A DNA stretch of 64,000 nucleotides, taken from Microcoleus sp. AS-A8. GTDB taxonomy: Bacteria; Cyanobacteriota; Cyanobacteriia; Cyanobacteriales; Coleofasciculaceae. Below, one piece after another: positions 49,923 through 59,361 of the stretch; position 1 is the first letter of the stretch; every line of letters begins with the position of its first letter. The stretch spans positions 1 to 64,000 of the forward strand of contig JAMPKV010000003.1 in NCBI GenBank assembly GCA_039962225.1, written 5' to 3'. The position numbers and the translations under genes were made by a program. The notes below the pieces were generated by a model. The model saw only the letters and a program-made list of their open reading frames with translations. It was not told where the DNA came from and did no database searches.

Positions 49923-51656
49923 TCAACTCGACGAGAGTGGCAGGCGTTTGCTACCACTGAGTACCTCTTCAAAGGCGGAGGCAGATAAAGGAGGACTGAA
50001 CCAATATCCTTGAATCTGATCGCACTGATGCCCATAGAAAAACGCGAGTTCAGCTTCAGTTTCCACCCCTTCCGCAACGACTTTTAGATTCAGACTTTGA
50101 GCCATTTGCAGAATCGCGGTTGTAATCGCCGCGTTTTTAGCATCCTGTGTCAGCGAAGACACAAATGAACGATCAATCTTCAAAATATCGAAGGGCAATT
50201 GTCCTAGAAAGCTTAAAGATGAATAACCTGTGCCAAAATCATCAATGGAGATTTGAATACCAAGGGATTTTAATTCACTCAAAGTTGCGATCGCCACTTC
50301 AGGATTTTCCATTACCGTACTTTCAGTGAGTTCTAACTCTAAATACCTGGGATCAAGTCCAGTTTCTGTGAGGATCTCGACGATTAACTCACCTAGATGG
50401 GGTTGACTAAACTGATGTCCCGATAAATTGACCGCGATCCGGATCGGGGGTAAGCCCGCGGTTTGCCAGCCTTGAGCTTGAACACAAGCGGTCTTGAGAA
50501 TCCACTCTCCCAGTGGGATAATGAAACCCGTCTTCTCCGCCAAAGGAATAAATTCAGACGGCGAAATAAAGCCTCGCTCTGGATGAAGCCAACGCACCAA
50601 GGCTTCTGCCCCTTCAACCTCTCCTGTTCGCAGATTCACCTTAGGTTGATAGTAAACTTGAAATTCTTGGCGTTCCAAAGCTTGACGCAGCTCAAGTTCC
50701 AGTAATAGTTCTTCTTGAGATTGAGTACCAATTGAGGCGAGGTAAAACTGATAAGGCGTCTTGCCCAACTTCTGGGCTTCTTCTCTCGCTGCACTGGCAT
50801 GTTTAATTAAGGTGTCAATATCCCGCCCATCGCGTCCAAAGAAAGCAATCCCAATTCTAGCTCTGAGAAAAAGTTCATGAACATCCACAGGCAATGGTGA
50901 GGAAAATGCCTCAATCAGGGTTTCTGCTATCTTAGCCACCTGCCCACGATGAGTATTCGGGGTCAGCAGAATCACAAATTGAGCTGCACCTAAATGAGCA
51001 ATGGTGTCTAGTGGACTGACACAATTCTGAAGACGTTCTGCAATGGCTTTGAGTAACAAGTCGCCACTGGTGGGTCCGAGGGTATTGTGCAGCCGTTTGA
51101 GTTGCTCAAAGCCGACGGAGAGTAAGGGAATCCGGCGCTGGCGGGCATTACCTTGAGTGAGTAACTGATTAAACCGTTCTTCCAATAACACTTGATTGGG
51201 CAAGTTGGTCAAATGGTTATAACGCAGTAGGTAGTCTAGTTGAGCTTGTGTCTGCTCTAGTTCCAGGCTATGCCGCTGAGCCAAAGAAGCTTTTTTTTGC
51301 AATCGAGTGGCAATCGCCTCTAGGAGTTCAGCCCTGGTAAACGGCTTGGTGAGGTAATCATCCGCCCCTAAAGTCATGGCCTGACGCCAATCGGCCCGAT
51401 CCGCTTTGGCGGTGAGAAAAATGAAGGGAATGGTTGCGGTGGTTGGGTCTTGTTGCAACGCCTTCAAGACACCGTAGCCATCCAGAATGGGCATGAGAAT
51501 GTCGCAAATAATCACATCAGGCTGTTCACGGCGCGCTAGCTGCACCCCACAGCTACCATTCTCTGCACCGATGGCCTGGAACCCTTCGGCACTCAGGAGT
51601 TTAAGTAGATTAATCCGAATCGATCGCTCGTCTTCAATTACGAGAATTTTATACAT
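49923..51656 (-). CDS. response regulator with degenerate GGDEF and intact EAL (c-di-GMP phosphodiesterase)
   Basis: A 577-residue protein in the order receiver, GGDEF, EAL. The receiver has the acidic pair in VIEDERS and the phospho-acceptor Asp in VIICDILMP. The GGDEF motif is degenerate (HLGAAQFVILL), so cyclase activity is unlikely. The EAL domain keeps the EAL motif (GAEALVRW), the Asn of IAVNLSG, the Glu of ELTES, DDFGTGYSSL and KIDRSFV, so c-di-GMP hydrolysis is expected. It lies 114 bases downstream of the ethylene-receptor-like kinase on the same strand, suggesting a two-component pair. Confidence 0.93.
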   Translation of the reverse strand: MYKILVIEDERSIRINLLKLLSAEGFQAIGAENGSCGVQLARREQPDVIICDILMPILDGYGVLKALQQDPTTATIPFIFLTAKADRADWRQAMTLGADDYLTKPFTRAELLEAIATRLQKKASLAQRHSLELEQTQAQLDYLLRYNHLTNLPNQVLLEERFNQLLTQGNARQRRIPLLSVGFEQLKRLHNTLGPTSGDLLLKAIAERLQNCVSPLDTIAHLGAAQFVILLTPNTHRGQVAKIAETLIEAFSSPLPVDVHELFLRARIGIAFFGRDGRDIDTLIKHASAAREEAQKLGKTPYQFYLASIGTQSQEELLLELELRQALERQEFQVYYQPKVNLRTGEVEGAEALVRWLHPERGFISPSEFIPLAEKTGFIIPLGEWILKTACVQAQGWQTAGLPPIRIAVNLSGHQFSQPHLGELIVEILTETGLDPRYLELELTESTVMENPEVAIATLSELKSLGIQISIDDFGTGYSSLSFLGQLPFDILKIDRSFVSSLTQDAKNAAITTAILQMAQSLNLKVVAEGVETEAELAFFYGHQCDQIQGYWFSPPLSASAFEEVLSGSKRLPLSSS

Positions 51657-51770
51657 CGGTTCTGGTCCTTGGAATAGGTTAAATTGACACGATAACGTGA
51701 CAGAAGCTCTTTGTGGCTATGAAGTAAGCTGTTGATTTAACCCTGGATTGACAAGAGCGGACTTCATCGG

Positions 51771-54700
51771 TTAAACGATTTGACTTGTGTCTCCAAATCG
51801 TTTGGGTTGGTTGATGCGAGGTGACACACGATTCAGCATGGGAAGAGAGAAATGGTTTTTTAAAGGCAGTGACACGGTAAATCGAGTTCCTAGCCCGACT
51901 TCACTGTTGACGCTAATCTCACCCCTATGTAAGTCAACACAGGTTTTAACAATCGCTAGCCCTAATCCTGTTCCTGCGATCGCGCCGACATTTTTCGCCC
52001 GGTAGAAAAACTCAAACAGTCGGGATTGATCTTCTCTCGGTATCCCTATACCCTGATCTTGAATTTGAAAAATCGCTTTGTCATCCTCACAAGTCAGTTC
52101 AAAGTGAACTTGACCACCTGCGGGAGAATACTTAATCGCATTGCAGAGTAAGTTACTCAGCAGTTGTCGCAGCAGCTTCTTATCCATACAAGCTAAGAAC
52201 CTGTGACCTCGACATACCAACGTTAGGCCGTGTGGGATGCCTGAGGGCGTTGGGTTTAAACTCATCCCTCGCTGAATTTCGGTGACTAACTCTTGGCAGA
52301 ACTCATTGAGTACTAGCGGTTCTGGATTAAATCGGACTTGTCCAGCCTCAGATGTGCCAATAAACAGCAAATCTTCCAATAACTGGAGCATGTGTTTGAC
52401 CGCATCTTGAATCAGATGCAACTGCTCAATCTTGTCTTCTTTTGTCCATTCGTAGTATTCCAGTAACTCCGCCGTGGACATGATCGTCGCTAGTGGTGTC
52501 CGGAACTCGTGAGACGTAATAGAGATAAAGCGAGACTTGAGATCGCCCAGTTCTTTTTCTTTTGCCAGGGCATTGAGAATCTCGACTTCCGCTAACTTGC
52601 GTTCTGTCACGTCCTCCGCAATCCCTGCAATTCGTGCAGGTGAAGCAACTTTGTTCAAGATGTGGAAGGCACGTACCCATACCCAACGAACTGAGCCATC
52701 GGGTCGCACAATCCGATATTCTTCATCAAAATCTTGCACCTGTTGGATATGGGGAGTCAAGGCAGCGACTACGCGATCGCGGTCTTCTGGGTGTATACTA
52801 TCTAACCAAGATTGAGGCTGCTCGTATAAACTCTGGGTTGTGCGTCCCCAAAGCTCCTCATAGGCAGGACTGATGTAAAGGATCTGGCTCAGATCAGGAA
52901 GCGTCAAAAAGAAAACCTCATGGATGTTTTCCGTTAACTGGCGGAATTGCTCTTCCCTTAAGCGCAGATCTTCCTGTGTTTTTCGGTAATCCGTAAGGTC
53001 CACGAGTACGCCATCCAAACACAGCAAACTACGATCTGCGGCAAATACGCCTTGACCTTTCTCGTAGACCCATCGTGTATTTCCGTCTTTTCCGATAATT
53101 CGATACTCTATCACGTAAGGCTTTTGGAGTGCGACACACTCGGCTATAACCAGCTCAACCCTGGCTCGATCTTCAGGAGCAATCACACTAGCAAATGTCC
53201 GGACTTGATTGTGGAGAAAGTCAGCCGCCGAATAACCTATCATCTCTTCAATGACATCGCTGATAAAGTCGATTGTCCAGTCTGCATCGTAGGCACGGCG
53301 GTAAACGACACCAGGGATATGATCCACTAAGGAACGGAATCGCTCCTCGCTCTCGCGCAATGCAGCCTCAGCCTGCTTCTGCTCAGTCACATCACGCCCC
53401 ATCATCAGGACTTCATCTTCACTATAGAAAACACTGCGAATTTCATAATGACGCCGTTCGCCCTTGAGCTGTATTGGCACTTCTGAAACTTGAACCTTAC
53501 CCGTCGAGAGCGTCGCTGCCACATCGGCACTCAGTTTAAGCGCTAATTCTGGTGGCAACAACTCAGCGATTTTTTTACCCAGAAACGCCCGAACCGAAAT
53601 CGGCGTCTGGCTATTTTTTGCTGGGATAAAGTCTAGATAAGTACCATCTCGATGGATTCGCACTAAGGCATCGGGAATCGCCTCCAGTAAAGCACGATTG
53701 ACCGCTTCGGTTTGGCGCAGTGCTTGTTGTGCCAAAAAACTTTCGTTCCACAAAGACACTGCTGCCGCTGCGCTGGTGAGCAAATCTATTTCTGATGCCT
53801 GCCAAGAAGAGTTTTCCCTACAATTGTCAAAACCAATAAACCCGAAAAACAGGCCATTCACTGTCAGGGGCAAAACTAGAATTGAGAGGATTCCCTGAAG
53901 TTCTAAAACGATACGTTCCGATTCGGGAAATTCGGTAACAATACCTGCAATAATTTCGTTTTGCGACAAAACTTGGCTCCAACGAGGGAAAACGTCCTCA
54001 TAAGCTAGGTTTTGCACCCACTGGCTATCCATTTTTGCCTGAATTCCTGGAGCGCACCACTCAGCTTTCTGACTCATGAGCAGACGTCCTCGCTCATCCC
54101 GGTGATTTTCAAACACGTAAACGCGACTAGCATGGGCAACTTGCCCCAACACTTCGAGAATCTCGTTGTAGGACTTTTGTTTGATGAACCCCTGTTGAGT
54201 GTCCCTCTCAAACGCTAATAACCCACGTTGCACTTCGACTAAGGCGGCTAAGTAACGTTCCCGCTCGGCCAATGCTGCTTCGCCCAGATGGCGCTCCGTG
54301 ATGTCGTGAAGGGTGCCACAAGTGCCCGTAATTGTCCCATTTGCATCCAACGTCAATTGCACGAATACTTCGAGCCATCGGTAGGCACCGCTTTGAGTTC
54401 GGTAGCGAATTTCTTGACGGCTGGATTCTTTTTTGCCTGCAATTAAGGGTTGAAATTGTGCTAAGTTGCGTTGCCGATCGTCGGGATGAACGTAATCTAA
54501 GAAGAATGTACCGAGACTCTGTGCGATCGCAAAATCGGTAATTTCACTCCAAGCCGGATTCAAGAAAGTCCAATATCCATGAACATCGGTCTGGAAAATG
54601 ACTTCTTTGACGTTGTCCACTACGGATCTATACTGTTCCTCTCGCTCTCGTAAAGAGGCTTCCACTTTCTGGCGTTGACCGATTTCCCATTGAAGCTGGA

Positions 54701-55205
54701 GGATAACATCCTTCAGCTCTGATAAGGCTTGTTTTAATTCTTGGGTTCGCTCTTCAACCCGTATCTCTAGCTGGTTTTTGGTGTGTTGCATAGCCTCTTC
54801 CGCTTGGGATGGATTTGCGTTTTCCAGGTTGAGGCGGTTTGGCAAGGCTAAAGCTTTGGGTATCGAAACCAACTCTCTAGCCATGGAGCAGGCTACTCCA
54901 GCAGCAATTACCTTGAAGAAGCTAGATAACCCGTAATCGAGGTGCCATAAAGTCCATATGTCCAGCAGGTGAGTGGTACCGCAGGCCATGATTAAAGAAC
55001 AGAACAACCAGAAGAGCTTCGGGAAGGGAATCTCAGGGCGCTGGCGTAGGCAATGAACCAACATCAGGAAAATTGACAAACAGGAAACGATCATGATGAA
55101 ATCACTGGCTACCTGAAGCCTAAAGATGCTCGATGCCCAGAGACGTTTATATTCATTGGAAATAAAATTTCCATCAAAAAATATCTGTAATACTTTGAGC
55201 ATCAT
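51771..55205 (-). CDS. ethylene-receptor-like multi-PAS/GAF sensor histidine kinase
   Basis: A 1144-residue protein. The N-terminus has three transmembrane helices matching the plant ETR1 ethylene-binding domain: Asp35 in SDFIMIV, then Cys75 and His79 in ACGTTHLLDIWT. The spacing Asp-40-Cys-4-His equals that of ETR1 Asp25/Cys65/His69, the copper and ethylene site. After a coiled coil come PAS, GAF and two or more further PAS domains, then the H-box SITSHEFRTPL near residue 900 and the HATPase with NLLCNAIKYSPAGG, DQGIGIP and GTGLGLAI. It is followed by a receiver-GGDEF-EAL gene. Ethylene binding is inferred from residues; it is known for the homologous cyanobacterial SynEtr1. Confidence 0.88.
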   Translation of the reverse strand: MMLKVLQIFFDGNFISNEYKRLWASSIFRLQVASDFIMIVSCLSIFLMLVHCLRQRPEIPFPKLFWLFCSLIMACGTTHLLDIWTLWHLDYGLSSFFKVIAAGVACSMARELVSIPKALALPNRLNLENANPSQAEEAMQHTKNQLEIRVEERTQELKQALSELKDVILQLQWEIGQRQKVEASLREREEQYRSVVDNVKEVIFQTDVHGYWTFLNPAWSEITDFAIAQSLGTFFLDYVHPDDRQRNLAQFQPLIAGKKESSRQEIRYRTQSGAYRWLEVFVQLTLDANGTITGTCGTLHDITERHLGEAALAERERYLAALVEVQRGLLAFERDTQQGFIKQKSYNEILEVLGQVAHASRVYVFENHRDERGRLLMSQKAEWCAPGIQAKMDSQWVQNLAYEDVFPRWSQVLSQNEIIAGIVTEFPESERIVLELQGILSILVLPLTVNGLFFGFIGFDNCRENSSWQASEIDLLTSAAAAVSLWNESFLAQQALRQTEAVNRALLEAIPDALVRIHRDGTYLDFIPAKNSQTPISVRAFLGKKIAELLPPELALKLSADVAATLSTGKVQVSEVPIQLKGERRHYEIRSVFYSEDEVLMMGRDVTEQKQAEAALRESEERFRSLVDHIPGVVYRRAYDADWTIDFISDVIEEMIGYSAADFLHNQVRTFASVIAPEDRARVELVIAECVALQKPYVIEYRIIGKDGNTRWVYEKGQGVFAADRSLLCLDGVLVDLTDYRKTQEDLRLREEQFRQLTENIHEVFFLTLPDLSQILYISPAYEELWGRTTQSLYEQPQSWLDSIHPEDRDRVVAALTPHIQQVQDFDEEYRIVRPDGSVRWVWVRAFHILNKVASPARIAGIAEDVTERKLAEVEILNALAKEKELGDLKSRFISITSHEFRTPLATIMSTAELLEYYEWTKEDKIEQLHLIQDAVKHMLQLLEDLLFIGTSEAGQVRFNPEPLVLNEFCQELVTEIQRGMSLNPTPSGIPHGLTLVCRGHRFLACMDKKLLRQLLSNLLCNAIKYSPAGGQVHFELTCEDDKAIFQIQDQGIGIPREDQSRLFEFFYRAKNVGAIAGTGLGLAIVKTCVDLHRGEISVNSEVGLGTRFTVSLPLKNHFSLPMLNRVSPRINQPKRFGDTSQIV

Positions 55206-58050: not shown

Positions 58051-58533
58051 ATGAATCAGGGTGGTAGAGCCGTCATTTCTGGGAATGTGTTAGAAAAAAC
58101 GGTTGAAACAATCTTACAGGTACATGGATATACCGAAATCTGTCGAGATTTGCCTAAAAAACGACGACGCGACTGGCTGTTATACTCGAATGAGCCAGCC
58201 AAACGATATGCTAAACAGGTTTATATTGGTTCGGGAATTTATGGAACAGCGATTTACGTAGATTTTTATGTTTTTAATTCTGTAGCCATTCCCAATGGTC
58301 TTATTGTTGAATGCAAATGGCAGCAAGCTGGTGGTTCAGTTGATGAAAAACTTCCTTACCTTAATTTAAATATACAGACTTGTTATCCCTCTCCCGCTGT
58401 CGTCTTGATTGATGGTGAAGGAATGAAAAAAGGAGCGATCAATTGGCTAACAAGACAAGTAGATTCTAATTCTAATTTACTGGCTGTACATAACCTAACC
58501 CGTTTTATAATTTGGGCTAACAACCATCTTTAA
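58051..58533 (+). CDS. PD-(D/E)XK restriction endonuclease of a type II system
   Basis: The 160-residue protein has a PD-(D/E)XK-like core: VDFYVFNSVAIPNGLIVECKWQQAGG, with D of VDFYV and E-x-K in ECKWQQ as probable catalytic acids and lysine, then GGSVDEKLPYL. Its stop is directly adjacent to the stop of the reverse-strand Dam-type methyltransferase (58533/58534), which supports a two-gene RM system. The recognition sequence is inferred to match the methylase. The sequence is AT-richer than surrounding genes, suggesting transfer. Confidence 0.75.
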   Translation: MNQGGRAVISGNVLEKTVETILQVHGYTEICRDLPKKRRRDWLLYSNEPAKRYAKQVYIGSGIYGTAIYVDFYVFNSVAIPNGLIVECKWQQAGGSVDEKLPYLNLNIQTCYPSPAVVLIDGEGMKKGAINWLTRQVDSNSNLLAVHNLTRFIIWANNHL

Positions 58534-59361
58534 TTAATAAGAGGTGATTAAAACCTCAGAAATTTTTCCTCGCTTACTGGCTTTAGAGTTAATTAACCGA
58601 GTGGCTGATATTGAATTAATTTTAAAATCACGGTAGAGTTCTCGGATGAAATTACAATCCGAATTAGAAAGCATAACTTTGACACCCCGTTGAGCTAGCT
58701 CGGCAAAAACTTCTTTAAGTTTTATCTGATCATCCGACCTAAAAGCATAACGGCTATAAGCTGTAAAATTACTCGTAGGACTGATTGGATAATAAGGGGG
58801 ATCAAAATAAACAAAGTCATCACAGCTATCCGCATAGTCAAGAATGTATTCAAAAGGCTTTACATGAATTTGAGCATTCTGAAGTGCAAAACAGGCTGAC
58901 CTTAGTAAAGATGGATTGCAAATTCTAGGATTTTTATATTGACCGAGGGGAACATTGAATTGACCTTGAGAATTCTCTCGATATAAACCATTAAAACAAG
59001 TTTTGTTGAGATAGATAAGACGTGCAGCTTTCTCCAGATTAGTGATGCCATTACGTTGACGTATATCATAATAATATTCTTTACAATGGTTGCTCTGATG
59101 TGCATCCAAAAGAACAATCAACTCCTCAACATTGTCTTTGACGCATCGATAAACATTAACAAGTTCGGCGTTAATATCCGTTAAAATAGATGATGGTGGA
59201 TTAAGATAAAAAAAGACAGCACCTCCTCCGAGAAAAGGTTCATAATAATTCTTAAAGGCTTTAGGGAAATAATGTATATATTGCTGAATAAGCTGACTCT
59301 TCCCACCCGCCCACTTTAGGAATGGCCGAGGCACAACAGTTGGCTGAACAATAGTATGCAT
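58534..59361 (-). CDS. Dam-type (D12 class) DNA adenine methyltransferase
   Basis: A 275-residue N6-adenine methyltransferase. Motif X/I region: PFLKWAGGKSQL (WAGGK at 17-21) and EPFLGGGAVFF (residues 41-51). Motif IV is DPPY at 187-190. NKTCFNGLYRENSQGQFNVP is a Dam/M.DpnII-type segment, so the likely target is GATC, although this is not proven. It is end to end with the REase gene. AT-rich. Confidence 0.9.
   Translation of the reverse strand: MHTIVQPTVVPRPFLKWAGGKSQLIQQYIHYFPKAFKNYYEPFLGGGAVFFYLNPPSSILTDINAELVNVYRCVKDNVEELIVLLDAHQSNHCKEYYYDIRQRNGITNLEKAARLIYLNKTCFNGLYRENSQGQFNVPLGQYKNPRICNPSLLRSACFALQNAQIHVKPFEYILDYADSCDDFVYFDPPYYPISPTSNFTAYSRYAFRSDDQIKLKEVFAELAQRGVKVMLSNSDCNFIRELYRDFKINSISATRLINSKASKRGKISEVLITSY

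Follow-up and report, generated by a model that had tools for sequence, protein, structure and literature searches.

We analyzed a pair of adjacent minus-strand genes in a 64,000-nucleotide stretch of the cyanobacterium Microcoleus sp. AS-A8 (GenBank assembly GCA_039962225.1, contig JAMPKV010000003.1, positions 1 to 64,000; hereafter the window). The first codes for a sensor histidine kinase with an N-terminal membrane domain of the ethylene-receptor type, and the second for a response regulator combining receiver (REC), GGDEF, and EAL domains (Table 1), which a first-pass annotation had read as a pathway leading from ethylene to the second messenger cyclic di-GMP (c-di-GMP). The layout that it described is correct: both open reading frames (ORFs) lie at the coordinates claimed, each starts with ATG, and the regulator begins 114 base pairs (bp) downstream of the kinase stop codon on the same strand. 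Pfam searches delineate in the kinase an ETR1_N domain (residues 27-119, 88.5 bits against a cut-off of 27), three PAS_3 stretches, and GAF, HisKA, and HATPase_c domains, and in the regulator Response_reg, GGDEF, and EAL domains (260.6 bits for the last); among the best 25 NCBIfam matches of either protein no equivalog reached its cut-off. The HisKA domain bears a phospho-acceptor histidine, His899, in the motif SHEFRTPL, and together with the HATPase_c domain identifies the protein as a two-component histidine kinase. Inspection by eye did not reveal a bilin-binding motif in the GAF domain of this kinase. A consensus scan of window positions 51500-52000, which takes in the intergenic gap, recovered no promoter-like site on either strand, no terminator-like site on the minus strand, and one plus-strand hairpin (0.4 expected); the absence of promoter and terminator signals in the gap fits a single transcript, while falling short of proof of one.

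Table 1. Features of the kinase–regulator locus in the window.
Feature	Position	Strand	Basis
Sensor histidine kinase, 1144 aa: ETR1_N, PAS, GAF, PAS, PAS, HisKA, HATPase_c	51771..55205	-	ORF and Pfam
ETR1_N three-helix membrane domain, ethylene-receptor-like	54846..55127	-	Pfam and residue alignment
HisKA and HATPase_c kinase core, residues 890-1116, H-box His899	51858..52538	-	Pfam and motif
Kinase–regulator gap, 114 bp	51657..51770	-	ORF ends; consensus scan
Response regulator REC-GGDEF-EAL, 577 aa, predicted c-di-GMP phosphodiesterase	49923..51656	-	ORF and Pfam
Receiver domain: phospho-acceptor D52, T82, K104	51312..51647	-	Pfam and residue check
Degenerate GGDEF domain, motif GAAQF	50760..51218	-	Pfam and alignment
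EAL domain: E351, N410, E445, D472, D473, K493, E529, Q549 intact	49989..50693	-	Pfam and alignment

The regulator and its predicted output

Alignment of the regulator with the solved GGDEF-EAL chains 5m3c and 4rnh places GAAQF (residue 223) at the position of the GGDEF motif, and all the EAL positions that we take to be catalytic are kept. Eleven further orthologues, at 64-95% identity to the window protein, form with it one clade (support 100/100) that is separate from six paralogues. Throughout these 12 proteins the receiver aspartate and the EAL residues are invariant, with Q549 being unreadable in one genome (G006), where the contig ends. Because this invariance is coupled to a GGDEF motif that is degenerate in all 12, the regulator is predicted to break down c-di-GMP, which is well supported by the conserved residues and agrees with the output suggested by the first-pass annotation. 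The ratio of nonsynonymous to synonymous substitution rates (dN/dS) of the regulator, computed between the window's own genome (G000) and a relative of the same genus (G001), is 0.076, a sign of strong purifying selection. A regulator-seeded scan of the named genomes returned at least 80 loci, mostly matches to the receiver domain alone, and was not used.

The ethylene-binding domain of the kinase

Seven residues are described as required for ethylene binding by AtETR1 (PMC11819568, PMC6682694). I35, P36, and I62 are listed among them, with C65 and H69 also named (PMC6586836); D25 is likewise given, alongside C65, and another account names Y32, I62, C65, and H69 as binding residues and cites Y32A and C65Y as diminishing binding (PMC8879215); a squash receptor with P36L is listed among mutants called ethylene-insensitive (PMC8012379). 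The window kinase lacks the full set. D35, I45, I72, C75, and H79 align with AtETR1 D25, I35, I62, C65, and H69, and at the positions of Y32 and P36 stand C42 and F46 (Y32C and P36F), such that five of the seven essential residues are kept. The window's own genome has eight ETR1_N matches, of which the window copy ranks sixth, with 93.8 bits as against 140-156 for the top five; because the window sequence was one of the five seeds of the ethylene-domain hidden Markov model, the score that this model gives the window copy is not independent, unlike the Pfam score. Single-sequence structure prediction of residues 1-155 returned the expected helices and no usable geometry (mean predicted local distance difference test score, pLDDT, 61.7; predicted template-modelling score, pTM, 0.34).

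Erosion of the site recurs in the orthologues of the kinase. Its PAS-GAF region is matched at an E-value of 1e-80 or better in seven of 388 sampled genomes of the source order, four of these being G000, G001, G010, and G012, and in all five orthologues with a readable N-terminus, the window copy counted, the ethylene site is defective, the manner varying among them. In G001 the equivalent of window residues 61-134, and with it helices 2-3 and both copper ligands, is missing from an otherwise open frame. G010 and G012 have only a stub of helix 1, beyond which their alignment columns carry no meaning. The G004 version keeps three helices with the changes C65Y and H69Q; its N-terminal half was read from a second contig (C114) with a 72% match to the same kinase in PAS1, and its assignment is thus inferential. 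The regulator-adjacent kinases of G004, G006, and G009 are short or run off the contig, with the N-terminus being unreadable in the latter two. On the second G004 contig (L179:4700-4925) the kinase ORF ends at the contig end in a low-complexity tract of repeated Ser/Thr and then Pro/Ala, which is probably where the assembly broke.

The first 60 codons of the kinase show a dN/dS of 0.53 between G000 and G001, as against 0.082 for the kinase core (residues 881-1120) and 0.08, 0.20, 0.22, and 0.03 for the four best-matching pairs of ethylene domains taken from these two genomes; three of these control pairs have all seven residues or lie in a high-scoring domain, and one has P36S. The excess is significant relative to the first three control pairs pooled (Fisher p=0.001) and to the kinase core (p=1e-5), in tests that used rounded nonsynonymous:synonymous counts and left out the control pair L186/L281 (dN/dS 0.03). 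A copper-dead ethylene domain of another protein has a comparable value of 0.52; more distant pairings, some with saturated synonymous divergence, were excluded. Hence, in the sole species pair compared, the N-terminus of the kinase looks to be under relaxed constraint. The claim of the first-pass annotation that ethylene is the input at this locus is not supported by these observations, namely the replacement of Tyr32 and Pro36, the defects in every readable orthologue, and the apparent relaxation of the N-terminus in one species pair.

The window domain is not isolated in this respect. ETR1_N is present in 292 of the 388 genomes of the source order, and the 20 genomes of the source family have 69 matches, among which the window copy is 56th by score. 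The order-wide sample is biased toward canonical domains, as it derives from a score-ranked list, such that the fusion and neighbor counts given below are not population rates; it comprised 89 stretches, 80 taken in list order (skipping those from the own genome or already fetched) and nine picked by hand, mostly for long open frames. To offset this bias we chose family ranks 40-66 and examined 26 of these 27 matches. None of them (window counted) keeps all seven residues, with two departing by P36S alone, as against 91 of 98 ORFs in a set drawn from the own genome and the upper part of the order-wide list; of these 98 rows, one is a helix-1 stub, and in another the called start of the ORF leaves helix 1 out. 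Degenerate ethylene domains are thus common in the source family, where they can readily pass for receptors. To find ETR1_N annotated in a cyanobacterium is no proof of ethylene sensing, because each of the 26 lower-scoring domains lacks at least one of the seven residues.

Two further proteins of the own genome illustrate other forms of such domains. A 1582-residue signaling protein (G000:C1:688868-688978; ORF L183:4773-9521) retains helix 1 as the sole part of its ethylene domain; D25, Y32, and I35 are intact in it, and helix-1 stubs of this kind may be a recurrent relic. A 1239-residue fusion of an ethylene domain to GGDEF and EAL domains (G000:C3:386277-389996; L184:6278-9997) has lost the copper ligands, with SGTVE in place of CGTTH, as has its G001 orthologue (L286:970-4689).

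Pairing of the genes and the proposed circuit

A same-strand kinase adjoins the regulator in six of the 12 orthologue genomes (G000, G001, G004, G006, G009, and G010), the gap measuring some 300-730 bp for G009, G010, and G004 when taken to the start homologous to that of the window. No kinase adjoins the regulator in G005, G007, G015, G018, or G019; in G012, 388 bp separate it from the end of its contig, and the kinase orthologue is found in the interior of another contig beside a different gene. Because the arrangement recurs in half of the genomes, we reject chance adjacency as its whole explanation. Additionally, five of the 34 kinase-family rows examined outside the orthologue group have a same-family regulator no more than 3 kb away; this count drew on 41 rows for the kinase (the leading 40 ORFs, after dropping second pieces of one ORF, plus G009:C608) and the first 50 rows of the regulator-match list. 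Judged by gene order and by the strong purifying selection on the regulator and the kinase core between G000 and G001, the two are likely, not certain, to be a functional pair. A distinct cassette, combining a lone REC with a histidine kinase and a REC-GGDEF-EAL paralogue, recurs at L064:4360-10712 and in L065, L067, L068, and L070; its paralogue is about 54% identical to the window regulator in G000, and several instances add a further REC-containing gene.

We propose, at a probability of roughly 0.6, that the two proteins constitute a two-component pair that lowers c-di-GMP through a phosphodiesterase, with a relic or modified ethylene receptor as its sensor. A domain that descends from the ethylene receptors of cyanobacteria would fix the kinase in the membrane, and because the pocket of this domain is degenerate, the working input would most likely be another signal, sensed by the cytosolic PAS and GAF domains. 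The kinase would then phosphorylate the receiver of its neighbor and thereby tune the EAL phosphodiesterase, with the degenerate GGDEF domain serving at most as a regulatory GTP-binding module. The sequences themselves show the domain anatomy, the intact catalytic residues, the partly kept pair, the replaced pocket residues, and the recurrent destruction of the site among orthologues; the phosphotransfer, the direction in which the EAL domain is controlled, the absence of an ethylene response, and the nature of the signal are what we infer beyond them.

Several observations weigh against this proposal. The window domain retains its three helices, the equivalents of D25, I35, and I62, and both copper ligands, with which residual binding of ethylene or copper is possible; fungal receptors with two of three essential residues are reported to have still bound ethylene, less than AtETR1 did (PMC9603746). 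A single species pair underlies the dN/dS excess, all of which could have arisen on the branch leading to G001. In six of the 12 genomes the regulator lacks this kinase alongside it, and the pair is therefore not obligate. Finally, a c-di-GMP gene adjoins 4 of 90 ethylene-domain ORFs, while the comparison sets give 7 of 368 among other ORFs 250 residues or longer (p=0.24) and 1 of 36 among other kinases; as there is no enrichment, we reject c-di-GMP gene adjacency as a special signal of ethylene domains.

The retained helices and residues, an ETR1_N score far above the Pfam cut-off, and the existence of GeiEtr2, a kinase with all seven residues that adjoins a REC-GGDEF-EAL gene in a cyanobacterium reported to be ethylene-responsive (PMC6682694), are on the side of a kinase that still binds ethylene via copper at C65/H69 and signals to the EAL regulator. 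Given the substitutions of Y32 and P36, the defects in five of five readable orthologues, and the contrast between the low-scoring family domains and the canonical set in the retention of the seven residues, we regard this as unlikely. It is distinctly unlikely that the kinase and regulator are neighbors by descent and not partners, with other kinases serving the regulator: the genomes with no adjoining kinase, the separate position of the kinase in G012, and the longer gaps in three genomes would fit this, but same-strand adjacency is kept in the other half of the orthologue genomes and recurs outside the orthologue group.

The membrane domain might instead have been repurposed: Cys42, Cys75, and His79 would together make up an altered site, metal- or thiol-based, through which copper, redox state, or another ligand is sensed in the control of c-di-GMP. 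The cysteine at the Tyr32 position, the abundance of cysteine and histidine in helices 1-2 (C42, H51, C52, C69, C75, and H79), the persistence of the copper ligands and three helices, and the altered pockets of other low-scoring domains are consistent with this. However, cysteine is common in membrane helices, helices 2-3 are deleted in the sister species G001, and the predicted structure offers no usable geometry; hence, we consider it very unlikely. More doubtful still is the wider version of this idea, in which the ethylene domain was converted and not lost, becoming a sensor of copper or redox state, rich in thiolates, that would direct the breakdown of c-di-GMP, as one of many altered cyanobacterial ethylene domains that no longer sense ethylene. 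The reading that we prefer remains the phosphodiesterase pair with a relic or modified receptor as sensor, and the window locus is one of the weaker ethylene-pathway candidates in its group.

Elsewhere in the window (58051-59361) a 160-residue plus-strand ORF faces a 275-residue minus-strand ORF; the latter, judged by eye from its motif, resembles Dam-type DNA adenine methylases, and the two are possibly a restriction-modification pair.

Comparison with known systems

Phosphodiesterases of the RocR and PvrR type combine a receiver with an EAL domain, as does the window regulator, which adds an intervening GGDEF domain; RocR (3sy8) is a PDB match of its EAL domain, and PvrR an NCBIfam match below the cut-off. 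There are also single-chain proteins in which an ethylene-binding domain (EBD) is likewise tied to c-di-GMP turnover, with no need for phosphotransfer. Of the 97 ethylene-domain ORFs examined (seven from the own genome and 90 in the 89 stretches), nine have a fused GGDEF domain, alone or together with EAL, seven of these nine keeping all seven ethylene residues, and five of the 97, the window counted, have a same-strand GGDEF or EAL neighbor. A 606-residue EBD-GGDEF-EAL protein (L213:2478-4298; G222:C116) differs from the window pair in retaining the seven residues and intact GGDEF and EAL motifs, and is the cleanest candidate for a direct ethylene-to-c-di-GMP link among the ORFs examined.

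Among two-component systems, AzoEtr1 of Azospirillum brasilense, for which ethylene binding is reported to have been shown experimentally, resembles the window kinase in having a regulator gene, Azorr-etr1, just downstream; unlike the window regulator, Azorr-etr1 is described as having no other recognizable output domain (PMC11819568). In Synechocystis PCC 6803 the ethylene-domain histidine kinase SynEtr1/UirS (slr1212) is similarly encoded near response regulators, Slr1213 and Slr1214. SynEtr1 is reported to be a functional receptor of ethylene and light whose proposed regulator Slr1213 acts on transcription (PMC6508509, PMC5812497), whereas the neighbor of the window kinase is, by sequence, an EAL enzyme. 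Relative to Synechocystis, the first-pass annotation was thus right to see a different wiring; the arrangement of a receptor kinase with a REC-GGDEF-EAL regulator is, nevertheless, not new, given the fusions of canonical ethylene domains to GGDEF and EAL domains and a gene grouping noted for GeiEtr2 in 2019 (PMC6682694). By titles and abstract openings among the matches listed, we found in the literature no tested ethylene-to-c-di-GMP pathway in cyanobacteria.

GeiEtr2 of Geitlerinema sp. PCC 7105 (G157:C4:3147733-3150810, in L190) is the closest parallel, with an ethylene-domain kinase followed by a same-strand REC-GGDEF-EAL gene; our identification rests on an exact match to the coordinates and length (1025 residues) printed for it, and the same source describes it as a putative receptor grouped with a gene containing a diguanylate cyclase domain, in a strain reported to respond to ethylene (PMC6682694). 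The differences from the window are nonetheless marked: GeiEtr2 has all seven residues and a C-terminal receiver, as opposed to the two pocket changes and lack of a receiver in the window kinase, and its neighbor has an intact GGDEF domain and overlaps the receptor gene, as called, by 11 bp, in place of the degenerate GGDEF domain and intergenic gap of the window. Accordingly, better places to seek an ethylene-to-c-di-GMP link are the GeiEtr2 gene with its overlapping REC-GGDEF-EAL partner and the single-chain proteins joining a canonical ethylene domain to intact GGDEF and EAL domains. If such a link holds true for either of these, it would supply a second-messenger route for the published effects of ethylene on biofilm formation and phototaxis.

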